A stretch of 34,699 nucleotides of DNA from Bacteroidales bacterium (GTDB lineage Bacteria; Bacteroidota; Bacteroidia; Bacteroidales; UBA932), in contig JAILJO010000047.1 in NCBI GenBank assembly GCA_024694675.1, positions 1 to 34,699 on the forward strand. The letters are read 5' to 3'. Position 1 is the stretch's first letter. Every line of letters begins with the position of its first letter. Positions 3,255 through 34,699 of the stretch are shown one piece after another. The position numbers and the translations under genes are program-made. The notes under the pieces were generated by a model. It did no database searches. It was not told the DNA's origin and saw only the letters and a list, made by a program, of their open reading frames with translations.

Positions 3255-3281
3255 GTGTCGCCTCCTCAGACGAGGCGACAC
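3255..3281 (-). promoter_or_regulatory. DGR target-recognition hairpin downstream of VR2
   Basis: GTGTCGCCTC-7 nt-GAGGCGACAC perfect 10-bp stem; identical element at 9932-9958 next to VR1. Confidence 0.85.
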
Positions 3282-3298
3282 GTTTCAGGTATTAAATA

Positions 3299-3757
3299 TT
3301 ATTCTCGGACGGGCCACACCCCGAAACCGAACGCGCGGCCGCTGTAGTCCAGCGGGTTCACGGTGCCGGAACCGAAGTACAAGAGCCGGGCGCGCGTCTG
3401 CGAGTGCGGCATTCTGGACCAATAGTTACCCTCGGAGCCGTTAGCCCTCACTCGGCTTTCATCCGGATAGACAAAATAGACAAAGCCGTTAGCCGGCATG
3501 AAGATGGAGAGACCATTGGGGCCGGTGACCTTGTAGCCCTTCCTCTCGCTATCCCATTCCCACTTGCACTCTTCGAAGAGCTCGACGAAAGCGGCAGCCC
3601 TGGGGAGATAATCCCCGAAGACCTCCTTTGCCTCATCGAAGGTGTAAAAGCCGGGCGCTGCGTTCTCGGCCCATGCCCTTCCTGAGGGCAGGCCGAGATC
3701 CACGTACTCGAAATCTCCAGGCTTGAAGGTCTTTTTTGTAAGTTTTTCGTTTTTCAT
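3299..3757 (-). CDS. DGR target protein 2: stand-alone C-type-lectin/FGE-like variable protein (152 aa)
   Basis: YVDLGLPSGRAWAENAAP...; C-terminus FGSGTVNPLDYSGRAFGFGVWPVRE aligns with TR translation. Confidence 0.9.
   Translation of the reverse strand: MKNEKLTKKTFKPGDFEYVDLGLPSGRAWAENAAPGFYTFDEAKEVFGDYLPRAAAFVELFEECKWEWDSERKGYKVTGPNGLSIFMPANGFVYFVYPDESRVRANGSEGNYWSRMPHSQTRARLLYFGSGTVNPLDYSGRAFGFGVWPVRE
3304..3410 (-). repeat. DGR variable repeat VR2
   Basis: 107-bp match to TR 8977-9083 with 16 mismatches, all at TR adenines (coding strand). Confidence 0.95.
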
Positions 3758-5741: not shown

Positions 5742-6016
5742 CTGCATATTTTCTGCATATCCCAATGCCGTCATTTTGTAAGGTTTTGACTATCTTTGCA
5801 TTATCTGGAGCGAATTACACGCCTGGAAAGCGTGTATACGCCAAAAGCGTATCCCGAGTTCGAATCTCGGTCTCTCCGCTACATAAGTGCTTGATATTCA
5901 GCATTACCGCACATTGTGCAGGCATTGGAATGAACATTAAAAAAAACCAATGGTCTGCACATTTTTGCACATTTTTGCACATTTTTTGGCAAAAAGTACT
6001 GCATATTTTCTGCATG
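5742..6016. other. putative attP with integrase arm-type sites
   Basis: 17-bp CTGCATATTTTCTGCAT at 5742-5758 and 5999-6015; three GCACATTTTT with 10-bp period at 5957-5986; tRNA-Ser 3' core between. Confidence 0.7.
5818..5878 (+). other. partial tRNA-Ser(GGA): anticodon arm through acceptor 3' strand (attachment core)
   Basis: CACGC-CTGGAAA-GCGTG, variable arm ATACGC-CAAAA-GCGTAT, T arm CCGAG-TTCGAAT-CTCGG, then TCTCTCCG; no matching GGAGAGA or D arm upstream. Confidence 0.8.
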
Positions 6017-6044: not shown

Positions 6045-7274
6045 ATGATCACCACAAGACTCTACCTGGACACCCGGCAAAGCGCCGACCAGGAAGCACC
6101 GGCCCCCTTGAAACTTTCCATCTATTGGGACAAGGCCGAATCGTATCTGTTTACCGGCATCAAGCTGCCCCCCTCTCAATGGGACAAGAAAATGCGCCTT
6201 GCAAAGGACAAGGCCGTTCAGGTCTCAATATCTCGATTCAAAGTCAAGGTCGATACCCTCCTGGACGAGTGGCAGGAGGCCGGAAAGTTGGACGGCCTCA
6301 ACGCCTCAGAGATCCGGAGGAGGGTAGGGATGGAGTTGTCGCCGGATAAGGTCCGGAAGCAGCGCTTCCTTGCTTGGCTGCAGCAGTTCGGGTCCACCAG
6401 AAAGAAGCCGCGGACGAGGGAGATCTATCAGGCCACCGTAGACCGCATCAAGGCATTTGACCCTGGCGCCGAATTCCTGACCTTTGAGGATATCACCTTT
6501 GCCTGGCTGGACCGCTTTGACACCTTCCTTGCCCAGACAGCGCCCAAGAAGAATTCCCGCAACATCCACTTCCGCAACATCAAGGCCGCCTTTAAGAATG
6601 CGATGAAGAATGGCGTGACTACCTCATATCCTTTCTTCCAGTTCGAGATCCACCCGGAGCCCACGGACAAGAGAGACCTCACCGTTAACCAGATCCGGAA
6701 GCTGTTCAATGCCGAGGTGGAGCCCTGGCAGCAGAAATACGTGGACTTCTTCAAGATTTCCTTCATGCTCATCGCCATCAATACGGAGGATCTGATTCAC
6801 GCCACCGAAATCAATGACGGCCGCCTGGAGTATATTCGTGCTAAGACAGGCAAACCCTACAGTATCAAGGTTGAGCCGGAGTGTATGGAACTGATAGAGA
6901 AGTACCGTGGTGAGAAGTATCTCCTCAACATCCTGGACACATATTCCTGCACCCACAACTGGACCTCCCGGGTTGATAAGGCCCTCCACGAGATTTGCGA
7001 AAAGATTGACCTTCCCAAGAGGACTACGATGTATTGGGCCCGCCATAGTTGGAACACGATAGCCCAAAACGAGCTCGACATTCCTCAAGAGATCGCAGCT
7101 CGCGCACTCGGTCACGGAAAGAAGACCGTTAACGACATATACCTCAACTTCGACATCACAAAGATTGACCGCGCCAACCGTCAGGTGCTGGATTACATTC
7201 TCTATGACAAGAAGGCGGAGAATGTGTATGACCTCATCAAGCAGCTGAATGAGAAGATTGCCAAGCTGGCATGA
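6045..7274 (+). CDS. int: tyrosine recombinase / phage integrase (409 aa)
   Basis: Bacteroidetes-type N-terminal arm-binding and SAM-like domains; C-terminal WARHSWNTIAQNELDIPQEIAARALGHGKKTVNDIYLNF. Confidence 0.95.
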   Translation: MITTRLYLDTRQSADQEAPAPLKLSIYWDKAESYLFTGIKLPPSQWDKKMRLAKDKAVQVSISRFKVKVDTLLDEWQEAGKLDGLNASEIRRRVGMELSPDKVRKQRFLAWLQQFGSTRKKPRTREIYQATVDRIKAFDPGAEFLTFEDITFAWLDRFDTFLAQTAPKKNSRNIHFRNIKAAFKNAMKNGVTTSYPFFQFEIHPEPTDKRDLTVNQIRKLFNAEVEPWQQKYVDFFKISFMLIAINTEDLIHATEINDGRLEYIRAKTGKPYSIKVEPECMELIEKYRGEKYLLNILDTYSCTHNWTSRVDKALHEICEKIDLPKRTTMYWARHSWNTIAQNELDIPQEIAARALGHGKKTVNDIYLNFDITKIDRANRQVLDYILYDKKAENVYDLIKQLNEKIAKLA

Positions 7275-7771: not shown

Positions 7772-8944
7772 TTATTGGGGTTTAATGATTGCCTTTGTTA
7801 AGTCCGCCCTAAACTGAAAGAGGCGCCTGATATGCCCAGCCTCCATGATGGTGGGCAACGTGGCCCGGTACTCATCGAAATGCGACAGGTATCCAAGCCT
7901 TGAATTGAGTATCGAGAGAGCCCTGTCGATATCAACCGCCTTTCCCGCCGCAATGGCGGCGTCGAGCTCCCTGATGTAGATGCGAAACCTCTCCATGGAA
8001 TCATTCTTCGCATGACGGCGGTATGGTTTAATAACAGCACCAAGGAAGAAAGCCGGTTCTCTGGTACTGGTTATAGTAGTCTTGTTGGGATGGAGTCGTA
8101 GACTGAGTTCTCGGTCCAGGAATTCCCCGGCTCTTTCACGGCATTCCTCCAGATACCGGTAAGACCGATGCATGGCCTTACTGTCATCCACGTATCGGAC
8201 ATAATTCTTTATATGCAGAGACCTCTTCATAAACTGGTCGAAGGGGTTGAGGTAGATATTGCTGAAGAGTTGGTTTATCACATCTCCTATGGGAATACCT
8301 ACGCCCTGGGGCTGGAACCGTAGCGACTTCTCCGGGAGAACCAGCTGGATTCTCCCCGGATCTCCGTAGTAAACACATCCTTCCAAGGGGTCTCGTGAAA
8401 GGAAGGTGAAGATGAGATAGTCCGCGAATTCATAGTCTATCTCGTCAGGGAAGAGCTGGCGGTGTTTCCCAAGAGTCTCCCATGTGATATCGTACAGTTT
8501 CCCCCTGACGATAGACATGAAGTAGCCGGTGATATCAAGGTTGAGGATGTAGGCCTCATGGCGCCAGTTATCGGTCACGCTCCGAAGATGATGCTCGAAG
8601 CGCTCTATCCCGACAAGCGTCCCCTTACCGACCCTGCAGGAAAAGCTGTCATCTATGAAGTAGCGCTCGAAGATGGGCGCTATCATCATGAAGAGGACAT
8701 GGCTCACCACCCTGTCGCGGAATTGTGGGGCGAAGACTTCTCTTACGGTGGGGTTCAAGTTAACAAACCACTCCAGCGGTTGAGGCTTCCTCCGGCCTTC
8801 GTATAGTTCAGTGGAGAGCTCTTTCAGATTCTCCTCAAGGTGCATCTCAAACTCGAGCTGGGCAAGGGTCCCCCTCTCCTGCTTTCTGGCCTTGAAGTAA
8901 GCAAGGGTCGACAGCTCGTGTATTTGCCTGAAGGTGTATCTCAT
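7772..8944 (-). CDS. DGR reverse transcriptase (about 390 aa from MRYTFRQIHEL)
   Basis: RNYVRYVDD-type catalytic box (NYVRYVDDSKAM), GIPIGDVINQLFSN motif typical of DGR RTs, YILNLDITGYF; TR directly upstream. Confidence 0.95.
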   Translation of the reverse strand: MRYTFRQIHELSTLAYFKARKQERGTLAQLEFEMHLEENLKELSTELYEGRRKPQPLEWFVNLNPTVREVFAPQFRDRVVSHVLFMMIAPIFERYFIDDSFSCRVGKGTLVGIERFEHHLRSVTDNWRHEAYILNLDITGYFMSIVRGKLYDITWETLGKHRQLFPDEIDYEFADYLIFTFLSRDPLEGCVYYGDPGRIQLVLPEKSLRFQPQGVGIPIGDVINQLFSNIYLNPFDQFMKRSLHIKNYVRYVDDSKAMHRSYRYLEECRERAGEFLDRELSLRLHPNKTTITSTREPAFFLGAVIKPYRRHAKNDSMERFRIYIRELDAAIAAGKAVDIDRALSILNSRLGYLSHFDEYRATLPTIMEAGHIRRLFQFRADLTKAIIKPQ

Positions 8945-8976
8945 CTGTAAAAAAGAATCCAGGTGCCTTTCCGATG

Positions 8977-9158
8977 CTCGGACGGGCCACACCCCGAAAC
9001 CGTTCGCGCGGTTGTTGTTGTTCAGCGGGTTCACGTTGCCGGAATTGAAGTTCAAGTTCCGGGCGTTCGTCTGCGAGTTCGGCGCAAACGCCCACCAGTT
9101 GCCGTTGCTCCCGACATTGTTCAAGCCACCGGAGGTGCGATTCCGGTTGCCGGAGGCC
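8977..9158 (-). repeat. DGR template repeat TR
   Basis: 182-bp near-repeat of 9981-10162; coding-strand Asn-rich PLNNNNRANGFGVWPVR (AAC codons); mismatches only at adenines. Confidence 0.95.
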
Positions 9159-9359
9159 TGCCTGTTGAGCGGTCCGTTTGCTGAGTGCGAGGCCGGGAGC
9201 GCATAGCTGACGGCCATACAAACTTCCAGGGCCAGAAAAAGACACAGCCCCTTCTGGAATATCCCACGGAGCCAGATGCGCCATTGTGGGGTAGACCGCT
9301 GAATTGGAAAGGTCTGCACGGACGGTTGCGAATGACCGCAGGACCGCTCCGTTCTCTGC

Positions 9360-9764
9360 CTATTTAGCACCTGGATTGTCATCTTTATTGTTATGTATTT
9401 CGGACGATTTCCAAAGGTCCAGCTGGCGCATGACGTCAGCTTCAAGGTCACAAACAGCATGAAAGCCGGATGGTTTCATTCCGCCGGCATCGCTGACTAC
9501 TCTCGCAACGACGCAAACCCTCCGCATTATCCGGCGAGCCTCGTCAATAAACGCTCTTCTTTCCCGGCTGCCGGCAATCTCCTGATCGGCAAAGGCAATG
9601 TTCACCATTACCTCCATTATAAGCCCTATGGCATCCGCAACCATTCCGTATTTAATGGCGCGGGGCGCCTTGGCGGTGCTCGCCTGGTACTGCAGTAGGA
9701 GAAGCCTGGCGCGGTGGTAAACCGGAGGCATTTTCTGCATCCATGATTTACTTCTCCGCGCCAT
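9360..9764 (-). CDS. avd: Avd-like DGR accessory variability determinant (134 aa)
   Basis: small, basic, predicted all-helical ORF between target gene and TR/RT; size and position fit Avd; family call by eye. Confidence 0.65.
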   Translation of the reverse strand: MARRSKSWMQKMPPVYHRARLLLLQYQASTAKAPRAIKYGMVADAIGLIMEVMVNIAFADQEIAGSRERRAFIDEARRIMRRVCVVARVVSDAGGMKPSGFHAVCDLEADVMRQLDLWKSSEIHNNKDDNPGAK

Positions 9765-9931: not shown

Positions 9932-9958
9932 GTGTCGCCTCCTCAGACGAGGCGACAC
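9932..9958 (-). promoter_or_regulatory. DGR target-recognition hairpin downstream of VR1
   Basis: GTGTCGCCTC-CTCAGAC-GAGGCGACAC perfect 10-bp stem; identical to 3255-3281. Confidence 0.85.
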
Positions 9959-9975
9959 GTTTCAGGTATTAAATA

Positions 9976-12636
9976 TTATTCTCGGACGGGCCACACCCCG
10001 AAACCGAGCGCGCGGTAGTTGTCGTTCAGCGGGTGCACGTAGCCGGAACCGAAGAGCAAGCCCCGGGCGCTCGTCTGCGAGCTCGGCGCAAACGCCCACC
10101 AGTAGCCGCCGCTCCCGACACTGTACAAGCCACCGGAGGTGCGATTCCGGTAGCCGGAGGCCGGGAAGAAGATGCCCTCGGTGTCGCCGGAGTTCTTCTT
10201 GAACTTCCAACCTGCGTCGAAGCTGCCAATGACATTGAACTGCTCCGCCGTGGAGGTGTTGGAGCCCGTTGAGGTGAAGCCGGTGGCGAAGCGGCCAGCG
10301 GGGACGGACCATCCGTTCGGTGTAGGATCGTAGATGGTCTTGATGTGCGTGGCCTGGTCGTCCGCGAGAGAGCTGGAAGTTGTCTCAGCGGCGTTCCAGA
10401 AGTTATTGAACCAGGCAAGGTTATTCCAGTTGTAGTTCGTGGCGTCATACTCAAGGAAGAACTTGTCCGGCATCTTGATGGCGTTTGCCACCGAGCGGAC
10501 AGTCCCGCCAGCATCAGAGTCATCGGCTACACCGTAAGTCCCGATAGAGACGGAGTTGCCGGAAATGTCGTAGAGTGTCATGGCGCTCGTAGAGTTATAC
10601 GCCGCTGCGTATCCCAGCAGATCCTTACGACCCCACTGGAAGAAAGGTACCACATAACGCGTGTGATCTACGTTCCAGATGGCGCCGAAAGGTACGCCCA
10701 TGAGATTGTACTTCACGCCAGTGTAGTTAGTGATGACGACCGGCTCGATATCGTCAACGGTCATCCATATTGCCCAGCTCCACATGATGTCACCATTCTC
10801 ATCCTTGACGCAGAGGACGGCGGTGCCGTTCGTTGCAGGGACGGAAGCGACGGTGAAGGTGAGATATTTGCAGTCGACGCCCTCGCTGATTCCAACGCTG
10901 GAGATCATACCTTGGGCGGTCTGCCACAGAAGGGCTGCAGAACCGGCTGCGCATCCGGCGTTCTTCTCGATATACGGAGACTCGATTGCGTTCCCGAGAT
11001 GGTTGACGAAGTCCGCCGTATAGGTACTTCCCTGGCGCGTGTACGCCTTGGCATTCACCTCGCCCTTGTCGATACCGTTACCGTAGACCAGGGGAATACG
11101 ATAGACGCCGGCATTGCGGACGATATAGGAGTTCGCCGTGGACCTGAGAAGGAGCGGCTTGCCGGTCTTGGAATCAATGAAGGACAGATCCTGACCGAAG
11201 GCGTTGGATTCGAGGGCACGGATGTGCTCCGTGTTATCGGCAATGGCCTCCTCAAGCGGTTCCATCTTCTTGTCGATACCGCCGTTGACCAGGGCTGCGA
11301 CCGTGTCGGGGTAACCCTGCGCATAGCGCATGGTGACATCAGCGCTGCCAATAACGCCGTCGAGGTAGACGAGACCCCAGTCTTCGATAGCCATCTGGGT
11401 ATCCAGGGTTACGAGACCGGTGACGACGGTCGCCAGCTCATAATAGAGATACTCGCTGGTTGCAGTGGCACTCTCGTCGGTATAGGAGACTGTCGTACCC
11501 TCAACCGCGAGGGAGAGGTTACCGCATTTGACAACGCTACCGGGCTTCATGCCGGAGATGGTAGCCTGGTGGGTGTAGGTCTGCGTCTCGCCTTCCTCAA
11601 CCTCATCGGGAGTGGTCGTCCATGTGGGAGCAACCCTGTCGCAAGCGCGGGTCCACATTACCTGGGTTGAAGAGTAGCGCTCGAGGAAGTCCACGGAATT
11701 GCCTACCACAAGCAGCTTGCCGAAGGCGTGGACCGTGTTAATGATGCTGGAGAGGGAGACGCTTGAACCAGCGTCACCGGCGGCGTCAGGGGCAATATAC
11801 TCGTCGTAACGACGGCTCCAGCCGATATGGGCGCAGGTGGTGCCATAGGTGATGCCGCTCACGATGAGATAGCCGATGCCGGTGGGGTTATAGAACCGGT
11901 ATCCGTTGGAGTTGGTGTAAGGGCACTCAACGCCATCGCTCACCGATTCGGGTACTCCGGAGGACAGGGCCTTGAACCTCACGGTGGGGGTAAGGTTTTC
12001 ACCGGCAGAGTTGGTGAAGAGGATGCCATTGGGCTTCTCTGCAGAACCGAAGGCTCCGAAAGGAAGGGCGGGTACCAGGAAATAGTAACCGTCACCCACG
12101 GAGGCAGCGTTACGTAGAAGGTTAAAGCCCGATGCCCTCAGGGCGCTCGCATAGAACGTTTCCTTGGGGACGAGGCCGATGAGGATGGCTCCGGCGGAGC
12201 TGTCGATGGAGTTATCTCCAGCGGTAGTCTGGACCTGCTCGCTGAAGGTATCCTCAACAGAGAGATTCCCTCGGTCATTCCAGGATGTGAGATTGTCAGC
12301 CAGAGCGGCGGTGACCCCTCCGTTCTCGATAGCGGCCTTCAGTTCTCCGATGGCTTCCTCGAGGCTGTATTCCTCAACCTCGGCAGAATTCCAGTCTCCG
12401 GCAGCATGATCGGCGATAAACTTCCAGAGCTTGCGGTCGTAGAAGACCTTGTCCCCGACGCTGTAGGCCGAGACGGTAGTGAATGCAGGGTAGCCGAGTG
12501 CGTTGCGCTCTACAAGCACCTGCAGGGAGGCGGACAAACCCCGGTTGCGGGCCTCGTCAAGCACCGCGGCAGAGCAGGTATTCGGGGCGATCTTATTGCC
12601 CTGATAGTCCTTCAAGTTTCCTTGTCTTGTACTCAT
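9976..12636 (-). CDS. DGR target protein 1: receptor-binding/tail fibre-like protein with C-terminal variable C-type lectin domain (886 aa)
   Basis: sits among tail genes; C-terminus PASGYRNRTSGGLYSVGSGGYWWAFAPSSQTSARGLLFGSGYVHPLNDNYRALGFGVWPVRE aligns with TR translation. Confidence 0.9.
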   Translation of the reverse strand: MSTRQGNLKDYQGNKIAPNTCSAAVLDEARNRGLSASLQVLVERNALGYPAFTTVSAYSVGDKVFYDRKLWKFIADHAAGDWNSAEVEEYSLEEAIGELKAAIENGGVTAALADNLTSWNDRGNLSVEDTFSEQVQTTAGDNSIDSSAGAILIGLVPKETFYASALRASGFNLLRNAASVGDGYYFLVPALPFGAFGSAEKPNGILFTNSAGENLTPTVRFKALSSGVPESVSDGVECPYTNSNGYRFYNPTGIGYLIVSGITYGTTCAHIGWSRRYDEYIAPDAAGDAGSSVSLSSIINTVHAFGKLLVVGNSVDFLERYSSTQVMWTRACDRVAPTWTTTPDEVEEGETQTYTHQATISGMKPGSVVKCGNLSLAVEGTTVSYTDESATATSEYLYYELATVVTGLVTLDTQMAIEDWGLVYLDGVIGSADVTMRYAQGYPDTVAALVNGGIDKKMEPLEEAIADNTEHIRALESNAFGQDLSFIDSKTGKPLLLRSTANSYIVRNAGVYRIPLVYGNGIDKGEVNAKAYTRQGSTYTADFVNHLGNAIESPYIEKNAGCAAGSAALLWQTAQGMISSVGISEGVDCKYLTFTVASVPATNGTAVLCVKDENGDIMWSWAIWMTVDDIEPVVITNYTGVKYNLMGVPFGAIWNVDHTRYVVPFFQWGRKDLLGYAAAYNSTSAMTLYDISGNSVSIGTYGVADDSDAGGTVRSVANAIKMPDKFFLEYDATNYNWNNLAWFNNFWNAAETTSSSLADDQATHIKTIYDPTPNGWSVPAGRFATGFTSTGSNTSTAEQFNVIGSFDAGWKFKKNSGDTEGIFFPASGYRNRTSGGLYSVGSGGYWWAFAPSSQTSARGLLFGSGYVHPLNDNYRALGFGVWPVRE
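9981..10162 (-). repeat. DGR variable repeat VR1
   Basis: 182-bp ungapped match to TR with 20 mismatches, all at TR adenines. Confidence 0.97.
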
Positions 12637-12679: not shown

Positions 12680-14368
12680 TTAATCGAATAGACTGGAAAG
12701 GTTGTTGTTTTCTTCAAAGAAAACGCCCTGACCCTCCAGGGCCTCACCCATAGTCTTGGCATAGTCGCCCGCGCTGTTGGCATAACCTGCAGCGGCGGTG
12801 GCTGCAGCCCCAGCCTCGCTGGCTGTCTCTGCTGCATTCTCCGCGGCGGCGGCCTTCTGGTTGGCAAGGATGGCGGCGTGTTCGGCGGCATCGGCATTGG
12901 AAAGCGCCTCGACTGCGGCGTGTTCGGCGGCATCAGCCCCGGCATTGGCCCTGCTGGCGGCGGCATTGGCTGCGTCTGCAGCATCCTGGGCGCCGATGAG
13001 CTGGGCAAGCAGCGTCTCACACTGGCCCTTCACTGAGATCATATCCTCCAGCGCCTGGTACACACGCTGCAGGGCGGCGGTGTATTCGTTAAGCAGCTGG
13101 GCGTCCGCAGGGGATTCCTCGTCCTCCAGAGTGATGGCGGCCTCCTCGGTGGCGGTGAAGCGGTCGTTGAGGGATTCAAAGCTCCCCTTGGCGCCGTCAA
13201 TCTGGTCCTTGGCATAGTCTCCCTGCTGCTTGGCGTAGTCGCCTTGAGTGTCGGCATATCCGGCCTTTGTGTTGGCCAGATCCGCCGCATTGTTGGCGGC
13301 GGTGGTTGCCGTGGCGGCATAGCCTGCTGCACTGGTTGCGCTCTGTGCCGCATCTGAGGCGGCTGTTGCCTGAAGGAGAGCCTGGGCGGCTGCAGCTGCG
13401 GCATCAAGAGCCTTGGAGGCGGCGTTGCCCGCTGCGGCTACAGCTTGTGAAGAGGCATTGTCCGCAGCGGTGGCCATTCTCCGGGCATTCTCTGTTGCCT
13501 CAATGGCGCCCTCAATGGCGGCAAGGCAAGCGGCGGCAGCCTGGTCGGCGGCATCCCTTGCGGTCTCGGTGGAATCCTTCACGGCCAGCAGGTCCTCTAT
13601 AGCCTGATAGGCCCGCTGCAAGCATTCCATGTATTCGTTAAGCAACTGGGCGTCTTCCGGAGTCTCTTCCTCCTCCAGGGTGACAGAAACCTCGTCCACG
13701 TGATTGAAGCGGTCGTTGAGGGATTCGTAGTCCCCCTTGGCGCCGTCAATCTGGTCCTTGGCATAGTCTCCCTGCTGCTTGGCGTAGTCTCCCCGGTCCT
13801 GCGCATAGCCGGCCTTCTGGTTGGCGAGGGTGGCGGCATCATCGGCCAGCCCCGCCTTGGTGTTGGCAAGGGTGGCGGCGTCGGTGGCTGCACCGGCTGC
13901 CGTGGTGGCATCGTCCGCTGCGTCATTGGCGGCATCTGCGGCCTCCAGGGCCTCGCGGATGGCGGCGGCCAGGATGGAAGCGTCCACATCGGCCACGTCG
14001 ATGTCCACCTCAACGGTCTCGTCCTCAACGGAAGTGGTGCCGGAGGTCTCGTCCGTGGTGGCTACGAAGGCGAATGCTTTCTTGTCATAGGTGGCCTGCT
14101 GCTCGTCATAGACCGCCGTGATCACGAGGGTCTGCACCCCCAACCACTGGTGCTCGTCGGCATCGTAATGACAGAGGAGGTTTTCGGAGTCCAGCGGGTC
14201 TATCTCCACGGTGCACTTGCCGGCGATCTGCCGTTGCGCCTCGGAGTAGATGTAGGCTTTGATTTCGGAGAGCGTGGACCAGTCGATATGGACGCCGCTG
14301 TCCGTGAGGGTGGCCCGGATGTTCACGTCAGTTCCCTGGCGAATGTTGGGAATTTGAATGGTAGGCAT
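12680..14368 (-). CDS. baseplate upper protein-like, long Ala-rich coiled coil (562 aa)
   Basis: N-terminal BppU-like IRATLTDSGVHIDWSTLSEIKAYIYSE...; Ala-rich heptads; internal duplication. Confidence 0.75.
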   Translation of the reverse strand: MPTIQIPNIRQGTDVNIRATLTDSGVHIDWSTLSEIKAYIYSEAQRQIAGKCTVEIDPLDSENLLCHYDADEHQWLGVQTLVITAVYDEQQATYDKKAFAFVATTDETSGTTSVEDETVEVDIDVADVDASILAAAIREALEAADAANDAADDATTAAGAATDAATLANTKAGLADDAATLANQKAGYAQDRGDYAKQQGDYAKDQIDGAKGDYESLNDRFNHVDEVSVTLEEEETPEDAQLLNEYMECLQRAYQAIEDLLAVKDSTETARDAADQAAAACLAAIEGAIEATENARRMATAADNASSQAVAAAGNAASKALDAAAAAAQALLQATAASDAAQSATSAAGYAATATTAANNAADLANTKAGYADTQGDYAKQQGDYAKDQIDGAKGSFESLNDRFTATEEAAITLEDEESPADAQLLNEYTAALQRVYQALEDMISVKGQCETLLAQLIGAQDAADAANAAASRANAGADAAEHAAVEALSNADAAEHAAILANQKAAAAENAAETASEAGAAATAAAGYANSAGDYAKTMGEALEGQGVFFEENNNLSSLFD

Positions 14369-28932: not shown

Positions 28933-29553
28933 TCACATATTTCCCCATTTTTCTATGCGAAATGCCGTCCTGCCGATAGAGTCCCGGCAAATACACACAG
29001 CCTTCTGTGTAAGCCATCGTTTAGGGTTAGTTACAGAGCCTTTCTCCAGGCTGCTTAATAGCGCAAACTCCGCCTCAGCAGAACAAGCGTCAGCAAATGA
29101 TTCTGGAACGTGCGCCCTGCTCTGGGTTATTCTTACAAGAGCTGGGTGGAAATTCTCCATCAGAACGATAATATCCTCGCGATTCCCCTTATAGAATTGA
29201 AGGGAAGCATTGAGCCACCGGATTTCATCTTCTATTTTGCTTACCGATGTGGCGTGGGATTTCTTCGATTCCCTGATCTTTGCGCTTCGCAAGTTTAATT
29301 CAGTGCGTGTTATAAACTCACCGTCTTTCGTCACAACATACTTACGTGAATCAAATGTTGTCGGATCTATCTGCTTATCTACGCAAAAGCGAAACTTCGC
29401 CCTGGATACAGTGGTACCTTTATCCCCCCTGAGCATAGAGATTGCCTTTCCTTGGTGAATCGGGCGCCAGCCGCCCCGCCTATCCTTTACGACAAGCTCA
29501 TCATGTTCGTTGATTCCGTAGGTATCGAACCCCGGCATTGTTCTTACACTCAT
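28933..29553 (-). CDS. hypothetical protein with NUMOD4-like N-terminus (206 aa)
   Basis: MPGFDTYGINEHDELVVKDRRGGWRPIHQGK resembles NUMOD4; no HNH core seen. Confidence 0.45.
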   Translation of the reverse strand: MSVRTMPGFDTYGINEHDELVVKDRRGGWRPIHQGKAISMLRGDKGTTVSRAKFRFCVDKQIDPTTFDSRKYVVTKDGEFITRTELNLRSAKIRESKKSHATSVSKIEDEIRWLNASLQFYKGNREDIIVLMENFHPALVRITQSRAHVPESFADACSAEAEFALLSSLEKGSVTNPKRWLTQKAVCICRDSIGRTAFRIEKWGNM

Positions 29554-30476
29554 AGGAAAATCTTTTTTGCGGCGGCTTTCTTGGCGTCGTCGTCGGAGTG
29601 GGCGTAGATGTTCAGGGTGGTTTGCACGTCGCTGTGGCCAAGGAGCTCTGCGGTGGTGCGGATGTCAACCTTGGCTTGTAAGAGACGTGAGGCATAAGTG
29701 TGGCGCAGGCTATGGAATGACTTGTATGGGATACCTAACTTTTCACAGCGCGTCTTGAATTTACAGCGCATCGTCCGGGGCTCAACAAAGGGCGTGTCGT
29801 CCGTTGAACAAGCAGCGCTGATATACTCCTCGTCCGAAATCTTGTAGAGTTTCTGGTAATTCTTGAAATACTTGCCAAGCCATGACGGAATTGGGACGAT
29901 CCTCTCAGATGCTCCACATTTCGGAGGATTCACATAGAGGCTTGTCTTTCCCTTGCCATCATAGATTCGACCAACCGTCCTGCGAACGCTGATGCACCCT
30001 TTCTCAAAGTCAAAATCTCCATACTGAAGGCCGGAGAGCTCACCAATTCTCAACCCGGTTAATGCGCCAAGAGCAATAATCTTGTCAAAGTGTGACCCGG
30101 ATTCTTTGCAATACTCCACAAGAGTCTCCAGCTCCTTGTTCGTGTACTTCTCGCGCTCTTTCTGTGGCCTGCAAGATTTTGTAGGCCAGATGATCGTAAA
30201 GGAAAGCAGCGGCCTATCTTGGTCAAGGCTCCAAAGTTTGAGCATATTCTTGAGAACAACAATATGGTCCTGGATAGTGTGAACGCTGAGACCATCTGCA
30301 ACCTTTCCATCAACATACTTTTGCAAGGTGGAATTCTTCATATCGTCCATATCTACGTCTCGGAAAACCGGCTCCAGGTGAGCGTACCAATTCATAGCAT
30401 ACGCTGCCAGGCTTGTTTCCTTTACGAAGCCGCGCTTCTTTGCCTTGTAAGTAGGCCAATACTCTCCGAATGTCAT
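29550..30476 (-). CDS. second tyrosine recombinase (308 aa)
   Basis: LTGLRIGELSGLQYGD...HSLRHTYASRLLQAKVDIRTTAELLGHSDVQTTLNIYAH: full catalytic set. Confidence 0.95.
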   Translation of the reverse strand: MTFGEYWPTYKAKKRGFVKETSLAAYAMNWYAHLEPVFRDVDMDDMKNSTLQKYVDGKVADGLSVHTIQDHIVVLKNMLKLWSLDQDRPLLSFTIIWPTKSCRPQKEREKYTNKELETLVEYCKESGSHFDKIIALGALTGLRIGELSGLQYGDFDFEKGCISVRRTVGRIYDGKGKTSLYVNPPKCGASERIVPIPSWLGKYFKNYQKLYKISDEEYISAACSTDDTPFVEPRTMRCKFKTRCEKLGIPYKSFHSLRHTYASRLLQAKVDIRTTAELLGHSDVQTTLNIYAHSDDDAKKAAAKKIFL

Positions 30477-33196: not shown

Positions 33197-33925
33197 CTAC
33201 CGGTAGTGATTCTCTGCATAGTATTGAAGGTTTTGCTCCTTGGTACACCAGCGCAGGTTATCCACACGGTTGTCATATCTATCCTCGTTGATGTGATCCA
33301 CTTCGGGAAGGTCGTAAGGGTTAGGAATGAATAGTTCTGCGATGATCCTATGCAGTCTATACTTTTTTCCTCTGTAGTTCACCTTGATGTACTTACCATC
33401 AACGGATGGTGTGATAATACTACGGAGCCAGTATGAGTACACGCGGCCAAGGTTAGAGAAGGCGTGGCCGGGGAATTGTCTGTGGTTCTTCCAGACTTCG
33501 CCGGGTAGCGTTGGGATGTCGTGGTTGAATACAATCTCTCGCATCCGTCTGCCGTCCACGTGGTGGCCGTTGCCGTCCTCCACGATGCGGACGATCTTGT
33601 GCAGCGCCTTGCTCCATACGCGGCCAAGGTTACTGACCAGATATTTTCCATACTCGCGGAACTCCTCTCCTTCCATCGGCTCAGGCATCGGCACCGGCTT
33701 GGGTGCTTTGACGTACAGCTCCGGGAAGGCCAGCTTGTGCAGAGCAATCATGCTGCGCCACGAGCGCTGGGTCCTCGACTTGGCAAGGCGCACCTGCAGT
33801 AATCCCCAGGCGTTGGCGTAAGGTGTGAGCTCCTTGCCGGTGCTCACCTTCCGCACCATCGCGCCGGGGTTGCTAACCTCGTACTCCGGCCAATCAGGTA
33901 TGATTCTCCATTCAATCATTCTCAT
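33197..33925 (-). CDS. NUMOD4 / HNH_3 endonuclease (242 aa)
   Basis: WRIIPDWPEYEVSNPGAMVRK ... LHRIIAELFIPNPYDLPEVDHINEDRYDNRVDNLRWCTKEQN. Confidence 0.92.
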   Translation of the reverse strand: MRMIEWRIIPDWPEYEVSNPGAMVRKVSTGKELTPYANAWGLLQVRLAKSRTQRSWRSMIALHKLAFPELYVKAPKPVPMPEPMEGEEFREYGKYLVSNLGRVWSKALHKIVRIVEDGNGHHVDGRRMREIVFNHDIPTLPGEVWKNHRQFPGHAFSNLGRVYSYWLRSIITPSVDGKYIKVNYRGKKYRLHRIIAELFIPNPYDLPEVDHINEDRYDNRVDNLRWCTKEQNLQYYAENHYR

Positions 33926-33955
33926 TCACATTAACATTATCATTAGGGGTTGTTT
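33819..33955. repeat. exact 137-bp direct repeat of window positions 1-137
   Basis: position-by-position identity at offset 33818; diverges at 138/33956. Confidence 0.95.
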
Positions 33956-34185
33956 TGGGGTTGTTTCTTTGCCCCCTCCGGGCGTGTACTGCCAGCAGTA
34001 GCGCTGCTTTTGCGGCTAGAGGTCCTCGTCCCGTGCTGCAGGGAGCGAAGATGCCTTATAGTTTCATCAGCAGCCTGAAGCTCTGACTTTAAGAATGAGT
34101 TTTCCTTGTTAACCTTCAGCAGTTCTGAAACAAGGAGAGTCACTAGCATGACTAGGACTACGGTTACGAAGATTAAAGCTTTCAT
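33943..34185 (-). CDS. small membrane-anchored coiled-coil protein, alternate allele of 136-354
   Basis: same layout and C-terminal KKQPQNNP. Confidence 0.7.
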   Translation of the reverse strand: MKALIFVTVVLVMLVTLLVSELLKVNKENSFLKSELQAADETIRHLRSLQHGTRTSSRKSSATAGSTRPEGAKKQPQNNP

Positions 34186-34189
34186 ATTG

Positions 34190-34519
34190 TTATTTGTTTT
34201 TGGTGTGTGTCTTACGCCACTCTTTGATTACTCTCTTGTCCCTGTTTCCTTTTTCCACGTTACATTCAGCGCAAAGTGATTGCAGGTTCTTTGTATCGTA
34301 GAAGTCTTTACATACAGGATAGGGAATGATATGGTCAACTACTTCCGCCGCCTTGATGATTCCACGACGCCGGCACTCTTCGCATAGAGGATGCTGCGCT
34401 CTGAATACTCTTGAGAGTCTTGTCCACCTGTACGAATGGTACGGGGAAGCGGATCTATCTCTCTGGTAAGAGCCATCATGCTTATCCACTCTACTCTCAG
34501 AATCCCAGGCTAATCGCAT
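34190..34519 (-). CDS. HNH endonuclease, diverged homolog of 815-1153 (from MRLAWDSE)
   Basis: CEECRRRG..AEVVDHIIPYPVCKDFYDTKNLQSLCAECNVEKGNRD. Confidence 0.9.
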   Translation of the reverse strand: MRLAWDSESRVDKHDGSYQRDRSASPYHSYRWTRLSRVFRAQHPLCEECRRRGIIKAAEVVDHIIPYPVCKDFYDTKNLQSLCAECNVEKGNRDKRVIKEWRKTHTKNK

Positions 34520-34699
34520 CTTTATCTCCCGTATATGGTTTGACCTCTGAAAGCATAACAGTCTTAAAGTCATTCCTGGAAAGCCTAAGGGTAACTGCCT
34601 TTCCATTGGAGCTGTAAGTAATAACCACCGCCGGCTTTCCTTTGTACATTACAATCTCTTTCCCATTCTCGCCGCTGACTTCCTTCGGACATTGTTCCA
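34497..34699 (-). CDS. C-terminal part of an unknown protein, cut by window end
   Basis: rc frame EQCPKEVSGENGKEIVMYKGKPAVVITYSSNGKAVTLRLSRNDFKTVMLSEVKPYTGDKDAISLGF*. Confidence 0.45.
   Translation of the reverse strand, partial: EQCPKEVSGENGKEIVMYKGKPAVVITYSSNGKAVTLRLSRNDFKTVMLSEVKPYTGDKDAISLGF

Follow-up and report, generated by a model that had tools for sequence, protein, structure and literature searches.

To our knowledge, the hairpin of BPP-1 is the one DGR hairpin that has been dissected by mutation. Published DGR hairpins have a stem of 7–10 bp, lie 4–34 nt after the VR, and are closed by a 4-nt GRNA loop (PMC3240598). In BPP-1, the hairpin or cruciform arises in supercoiled DNA and makes homing more efficient, enlarging its loop by 2 nt nearly abolishes activity, and the functional 3' boundary has been mapped by deletion (PMC3240598). 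The function of the DGR target hairpin has been described in two publications (PMC3240598, PMC12875486), and the hairpins of nanoarchaeal DGRs carry 3-nt GRA loops (PMC4372165).

The window, i.e. the whole stretch of 34,699 nt analysed here, sits in a metagenome-assembled genome of 157 contigs, and its terminase, portal, and major head genes identify it as phage DNA. Its DGR is encoded on the minus strand, and includes a reverse transcriptase of 390 aa (7772–8944; phrog_1423, 3.8e-78; RVT_1), the TR (8977–9160), an Avd-type accessory gene (9360–9764; a four-helix bundle by PF22296 and fold comparison), and two target genes 6.7 kb apart. Target gene 1 (9976–12636; 886 aa), which probably encodes a tail-fibre protein, carries VR1 at its C-terminus, and target gene 2 (3299–3757; 152 aa) has VR2 at its end. 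VR1 (9981–10164) matches the TR over 184 nt with 21 mismatches and VR2 (3304–3410) over 107 nt with 16, and all of these fall at TR adenines (A vs. non-A mismatches of 21/0 and 16/0). The 3' end of VR2, at its low coordinates, is invariant and IMH-like. A single letter separates IMH* from IMH, the TR reading GAGCAT (8970–8980) and the VRs GAGAAT (3300–3304 and 9977–9981), and this pair also occurs in L039, L041, L043, L075, L077, and others. L039 and L072 are one and the same contig, which is the closest relative and comes from an assembly labelled uncultured Bacteroidales RUG478.

Within the window's Avd family, 4 of 13 members match PF22296 (bAvd-like). At the sequence level the match of this family to BPP-1 Avd is insignificant, and the predicted fold of the Avd-type gene product resembles BPP-1 Avd (4dwl; TM 0.70/0.86). 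The predicted structure of target 2 has a pLDDT of 48.5, a low confidence, and was therefore not used. By its gene and repeat content, this is a complete phage DGR, combining a reverse transcriptase, adenine-only TR/VR variation, an Avd-type four-helix bundle, and a GC-rich IMH with a TR/VR difference.

Other features of the window include an alanine-rich protein (12680–14368), probably part of the tail fibre, whose internal repeats include a 271-nt direct repeat at 75%. Close to the contig ends, positions 1–148 and 33819–33966 form a near-identical direct repeat of 148 bp that is not a simple terminal overlap. ORFs that by eye resemble HNH endonucleases lie beside this 148-bp repeat (815–1153, 33197–33925, and 34190–34606). 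A stretch resembling a tRNA 3' end (5805–5880), in which ARAGORN calls no tRNA, stands beside a tyrosine integrase (6045–7274) and is a possible att site; a second integrase gene is found at 29550–30476.

The 3' ends of both VRs lie in the same 76-nt stretch. Positions 3255–3330 and 9932–10007 are identical (76/76 nt), with zero further matching bases at either end and 5 of 28 nt identical just beyond the stem base. In coding order on the minus strand, the VR runs into its GC-rich, IMH-like invariant 3' end, then into an AT-rich linker of 22 nt, and finally into a hairpin. After VR2, the linker (3282–3303) contains the stop codon of target 2 and the hairpin spans 3255–3281 (arms 3255–3264 and 3272–3281, loop 3265–3271). 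The VR1 copies of the linker (9959–9980) and hairpin (9932–9958; arms 9932–9941 and 9949–9958, loop 9942–9948) are the same letter for letter. The stem, GTGTCGCCTC/GAGGCGACAC, pairs exactly over 10 bp around a 7-nt loop, GTCTGAG on the sense strand. The hairpin motif has two sites in the window even at 3 mismatches, compared with none in 100 shuffles, and the 2.1-Mb host assembly holds no third site; both sites are VR ends.

Folding of single-stranded DNA gives z-scores of −4.7 for the VR1 copy and −6.0 for the VR2 copy vs. +1.1 for the stretch after the TR, and no inverted repeat of this kind flanks the TR. The fold gains an inner T-A pair on the sense strand that is missing from the antisense strand, which fits, without proving, a structure formed on the sense strand. 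Searches of Rfam and of phage records at the DNA level returned no match, and neither did a search of IMG/VR for the exact stem pattern, so the stem sequence of the window was not found elsewhere. An earlier note on this DNA had described the identical segments, the 10-bp stem with its 7-nt loop, the linker of about 22 nt, and the lack of a hairpin at the TR, and all of these hold exactly. The order it gave (hairpin, linker, start of the VR) is reversed, because the coding strand is the minus strand and the hairpin thus lies downstream (3') of the VR.

If the hairpin matters as a shape, its stem should covary, a check that the earlier note had proposed. A MAFFT alignment of the hairpins introduced gaps, so we counted covariation ungapped. 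Across 17 distinct hairpins of the window's clade and ten pairs, 96.5% of the cells are Watson-Crick, and two-sided (compensatory) changes are found at all ten pairs (70 cells, 18 extra pair types), compared with maxima of 68% pairing, 42 cells, and 17 types in 2,000 arm shuffles. The same pattern appears between the two VRs of single phages. For example, the stem of G765 is compensated between VR1 and VR2 (GGCGGCGCCC/GGCAGCGCCC), that of G064 changes its basal C-G to T-A, and that of G149 has two compensations, all with the loop unchanged. Between the two VRs of G777, the stem is wholly new and the loop is of the same type (ATTTCAA vs. ATCTTGA), and the L069 DGR has one TR and two VRs with unrelated hairpins at the same offset. 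Judged from these comparisons, the shape of the hairpin is under selection while the letters of its stem are free.

The clade's loops are mostly 7 nt long and follow RTYTNRR (GTCTGAG, ATTTCAA, ATCTCGA, ATCTTGA, GTCTCGG, and ATTTAAA); loops of 6, 8, 9, and 10 nt are also present, and in part of the clade the loop is more conserved than the stem. Canonical G-N-N-A tetraloops cluster elsewhere in the RT tree. On this tree, about 7 changes are needed to account for the RTYTNRR label, and a single origin of the loop class is thus not shown.

We surveyed VR flanks in RT relatives from whole genomes, IMG/VR, and GTDB, with TR/VR pairs called by adenine-only mismatch. Of 146 distinct VR 3' flanks, 72 carry, no more than 75 nt from the repeat end, a perfect stem of ≥8 bp that includes ≥5 G-C pairs; the corresponding figures are 12 of 146 for TR flanks and 0.5% for dinucleotide shuffles. 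The published BPP-1 hairpin (GCGGGGCC-GAAA-GGCCCCGC), included as a control, was recovered. A strict motif (RTYTNRR loop, stem of at least 9 bp, first loop base equal to the last) has 17 distinct matches in 2.6 Mb. Of these, 13 adjoin called VRs, those of L264, L265, and L270 are VR2 ends by context, and the 17th, in L086, has a VR-end-like context with the adjoining VR uncalled. Covariation, survey statistics, and motif specificity together strongly support the earlier proposal of a BPP-1-type target recognition hairpin.

The hairpin is not found in all DGRs. In phages QDWS (Shewanella), Magia (Burkholderia), and Haboob (Pseudomonas), here L293, L294, and L297, which have two-VR DGRs with A-only variation, no hairpin occurs within 75 nt of either VR; the DGR of L084 also diversifies without a recognisable hairpin, and VR1 of L075 is followed only by an imperfect stem, closable by tandem G-A mismatches. 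The earlier note had named homologous DGRs that diversify without the stem as evidence against its proposal, and such cases exist in part, i.e. the A-only DGRs of QDWS, Magia, and Haboob. As these and L084 diversify without a stem, the hairpin is probably an efficiency element of part of the DGR family and no universal requirement.

Two details of these flanks are recorded here in their own right. After VR1, both L075 and L163 read GGC-GA-GC-loop-GC-GA-GCC in place of full pairing, which might reflect sheared GA pairs restricted to the sense strand. In most of the clade's tags (e.g. L041, L043, and L152), a CCTTT-like box precedes the stem by a few nt; over the whole survey, its enrichment is modest (55 of 157, vs. 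33 in shuffles and 38 at TRs), and we therefore make no claim for it.

Two natural comparisons bear on diversification. Over 3,408 nt around target 2, the near-identical IMG/VR phages G766 and G767 (L267 vs. L269), which come from different metagenomes, show 18 differences. Every one of these falls inside the hairpin-tagged VR2, and 16 of them are at TR adenines, so that a hairpin-tagged VR2 of this kind has been diversified in the wild. Phage G769 (L263/L280; IMG/VR 3300031993_000166, G769:C1:28900-29826) has tandem copies of target 2, one of them tagged. The copy with linker and hairpin matches the TR at 76/76 non-adenine sites, while the copy without them, 90% identical to the tagged one over 300 nt upstream, has 15/76 non-A mismatches. 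This natural control suggests a correlation between tag loss and non-A drift, from a single case (n = 1), and since the untagged copy is also without an intact IMH, the drift is not attributable to the hairpin alone.

A GC-rich stem after a stop codon could also be an intrinsic transcription terminator or an mRNA-stabilising 3' stem-loop of the target genes, and a terminator scan does detect the VR2 copy, where a weak T tract follows (AGTTTTCCTT). However, the VR1 copy is followed by TTCCAAAG and has no T tract, as is the case for most relatives, and the region's scan matches number 13 vs. 14.4 in shuffles. We rejected the terminator on these two grounds and consider it barely plausible, also because another gene of the DGR operon follows shortly after the VR1 hairpin and the strict motif is confined to VR ends or their vicinity. 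Two identical hairpin-ended copies might likewise be the ends of an unrelated mobile element (a REP/IS200-like hairpin) that adjoins both VRs by chance. We give this practically no weight, given that no other copy exists in the assembly, that the hairpin follows VRs in relatives with its stem changed, and that the VR association in 72 distinct flanks contradicts it.

The origin of the matching tags was also weighed. The earlier note had proposed that the whole cassette moved together upon acquisition of the second target; its identity would then simply reflect recency. In favour of such a move, 49 non-coding nt are 100% identical and the identity breaks off sharply at the stem base. The end also recurs: in eight phages the shared stretch stops no more than about 3 nt from the stem base, beyond which pooled identity is near chance (68/224), and in G406 two basal pairs are missing from the VR2 copy. 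This end coincides with the functional 3' boundary of BPP-1 (PMC3240598). However, target gene 2 is orthologous in ten phages (the window, G406, G769, G765, G064, G149, G766/G767, G455, L075, and G777), and was therefore acquired long ago, before their divergence, although it may have passed horizontally between phages. If no exchange took place, one would expect the two tags of a phage to resemble each other no more closely than orthologous tags do. By contrast, same-phage tags are closer than orthologous ones in 7 of 10 phages (the exceptions being G766, L075, and G777), with mean identities of 0.86 within and 0.63 between phages; for the window these are 1.00 within and 0.82/0.78 vs. G406. 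A single move at the time of capture is thus not favoured, and we regard it as very unlikely. Since the tags are closer within a phage despite the age of target 2, the data point to repeated homogenisation, and suggest that the two tags of one phage tend to be homogenised, putatively by DNA recombination.

Selection could also keep the tags alike without any recombination, because the same RT/Avd reads both. Consistent with this, G455 and L077 have an identical tag in a DGR region that is 77% identical, which indicates that constraint also acts, and the loop is conserved, as are parts of the linker. On the other hand, tags that differ within one genome still serve diversified VRs, whether compensated (G765, G064, and G149), rebuilt (G777), or unrelated (L069), so letter-for-letter identity is not required. 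Selection on its own is unlikely to be the full explanation.

The 76-bp element is thus, in our assessment, very probably a cis-acting target-site module of a complete phage DGR, made of IMH, linker, and hairpin or cruciform, whose copies tend to be homogenised. Under this explanation, Avd-RT would make adenine-mutated cDNA from TR RNA, and the target strand would pair with this cDNA at the IMH. In the DNA next to it, single-stranded or negatively supercoiled, the GC-rich hairpin would keep the duplex open or mark the site and raise homing efficiency, an effect that we extend to the heptaloop by analogy with BPP-1, and the stem base would mark the functional 3' boundary of the module. Homogenisation of the tags by DNA recombination would then give each phage its own matched pair. 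A bolder proposal would have the clade's RTYTNRR loop, read by sequence (with an R-R mismatch, a T-R pair, and a sense-strand triloop), replace the GRNA tetraloop, and would also make the tags exchangeable modules, in which DNA ends at the cruciform base let the tag of one target be copied onto another and tune distant targets alike; taken as a whole, we consider this a long shot.

For the way in which DGRs find their targets, a heptaloop clade with full covariation and pairs of tagged and untagged targets offers a ready comparison with BPP-1. The contrast between the two loops bears on whether the loop is read by RT-Avd or by a host factor. Homogenised tags suggest a way for a DGR to keep a distant second target, which in G064 is about 30 kb away, under control. 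To find remote targets, the RTYTNRR hairpin can serve as a specific search signature.

Like the window, other DGRs serve at least 2 targets from one TR, as outlined in reports on the two-target gut phages nd4/nd12 (PMC10743442), in large surveys (PMC6642488), and for Thiohalocapsa (PMC10907252); the passages searched in them do not describe matched 3' target tags, whereas a shared, homogenised tag is what stands out here. Like the BPP-1 hairpin (Guo et al. 2011, PMC3240598), that of the window lies 3' of the VR, is absent from the TR, has a GC-rich stem, and keeps its shape rather than its letters. Sequence beyond the stem base is dispensable in BPP-1, and here the identity ends at the stem base. 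The earlier note had seen a different geometry in this hairpin; this does not hold for the stem and linker, whose 10 bp and 22 nt are inside the published 7–10 bp and 4–34 nt (PMC3240598), but does hold for the 7-nt loop, which is outside. Compared with the open-access literature, the GTCTGAG heptaloop of the window, and RTYTNRR in its clade, is unlike the GRNA tetraloop of BPP-1, and since BPP-1 loses activity with 2 nt added to its loop, a 7-nt loop cannot be read exactly as that of BPP-1. The nanoarchaeal DUSEL4 (PMC4372165) differs in having 3-nt GRA loops and a hairpin inside the target gene, but is like the window in that a VR-associated hairpin has its own constrained loop class.
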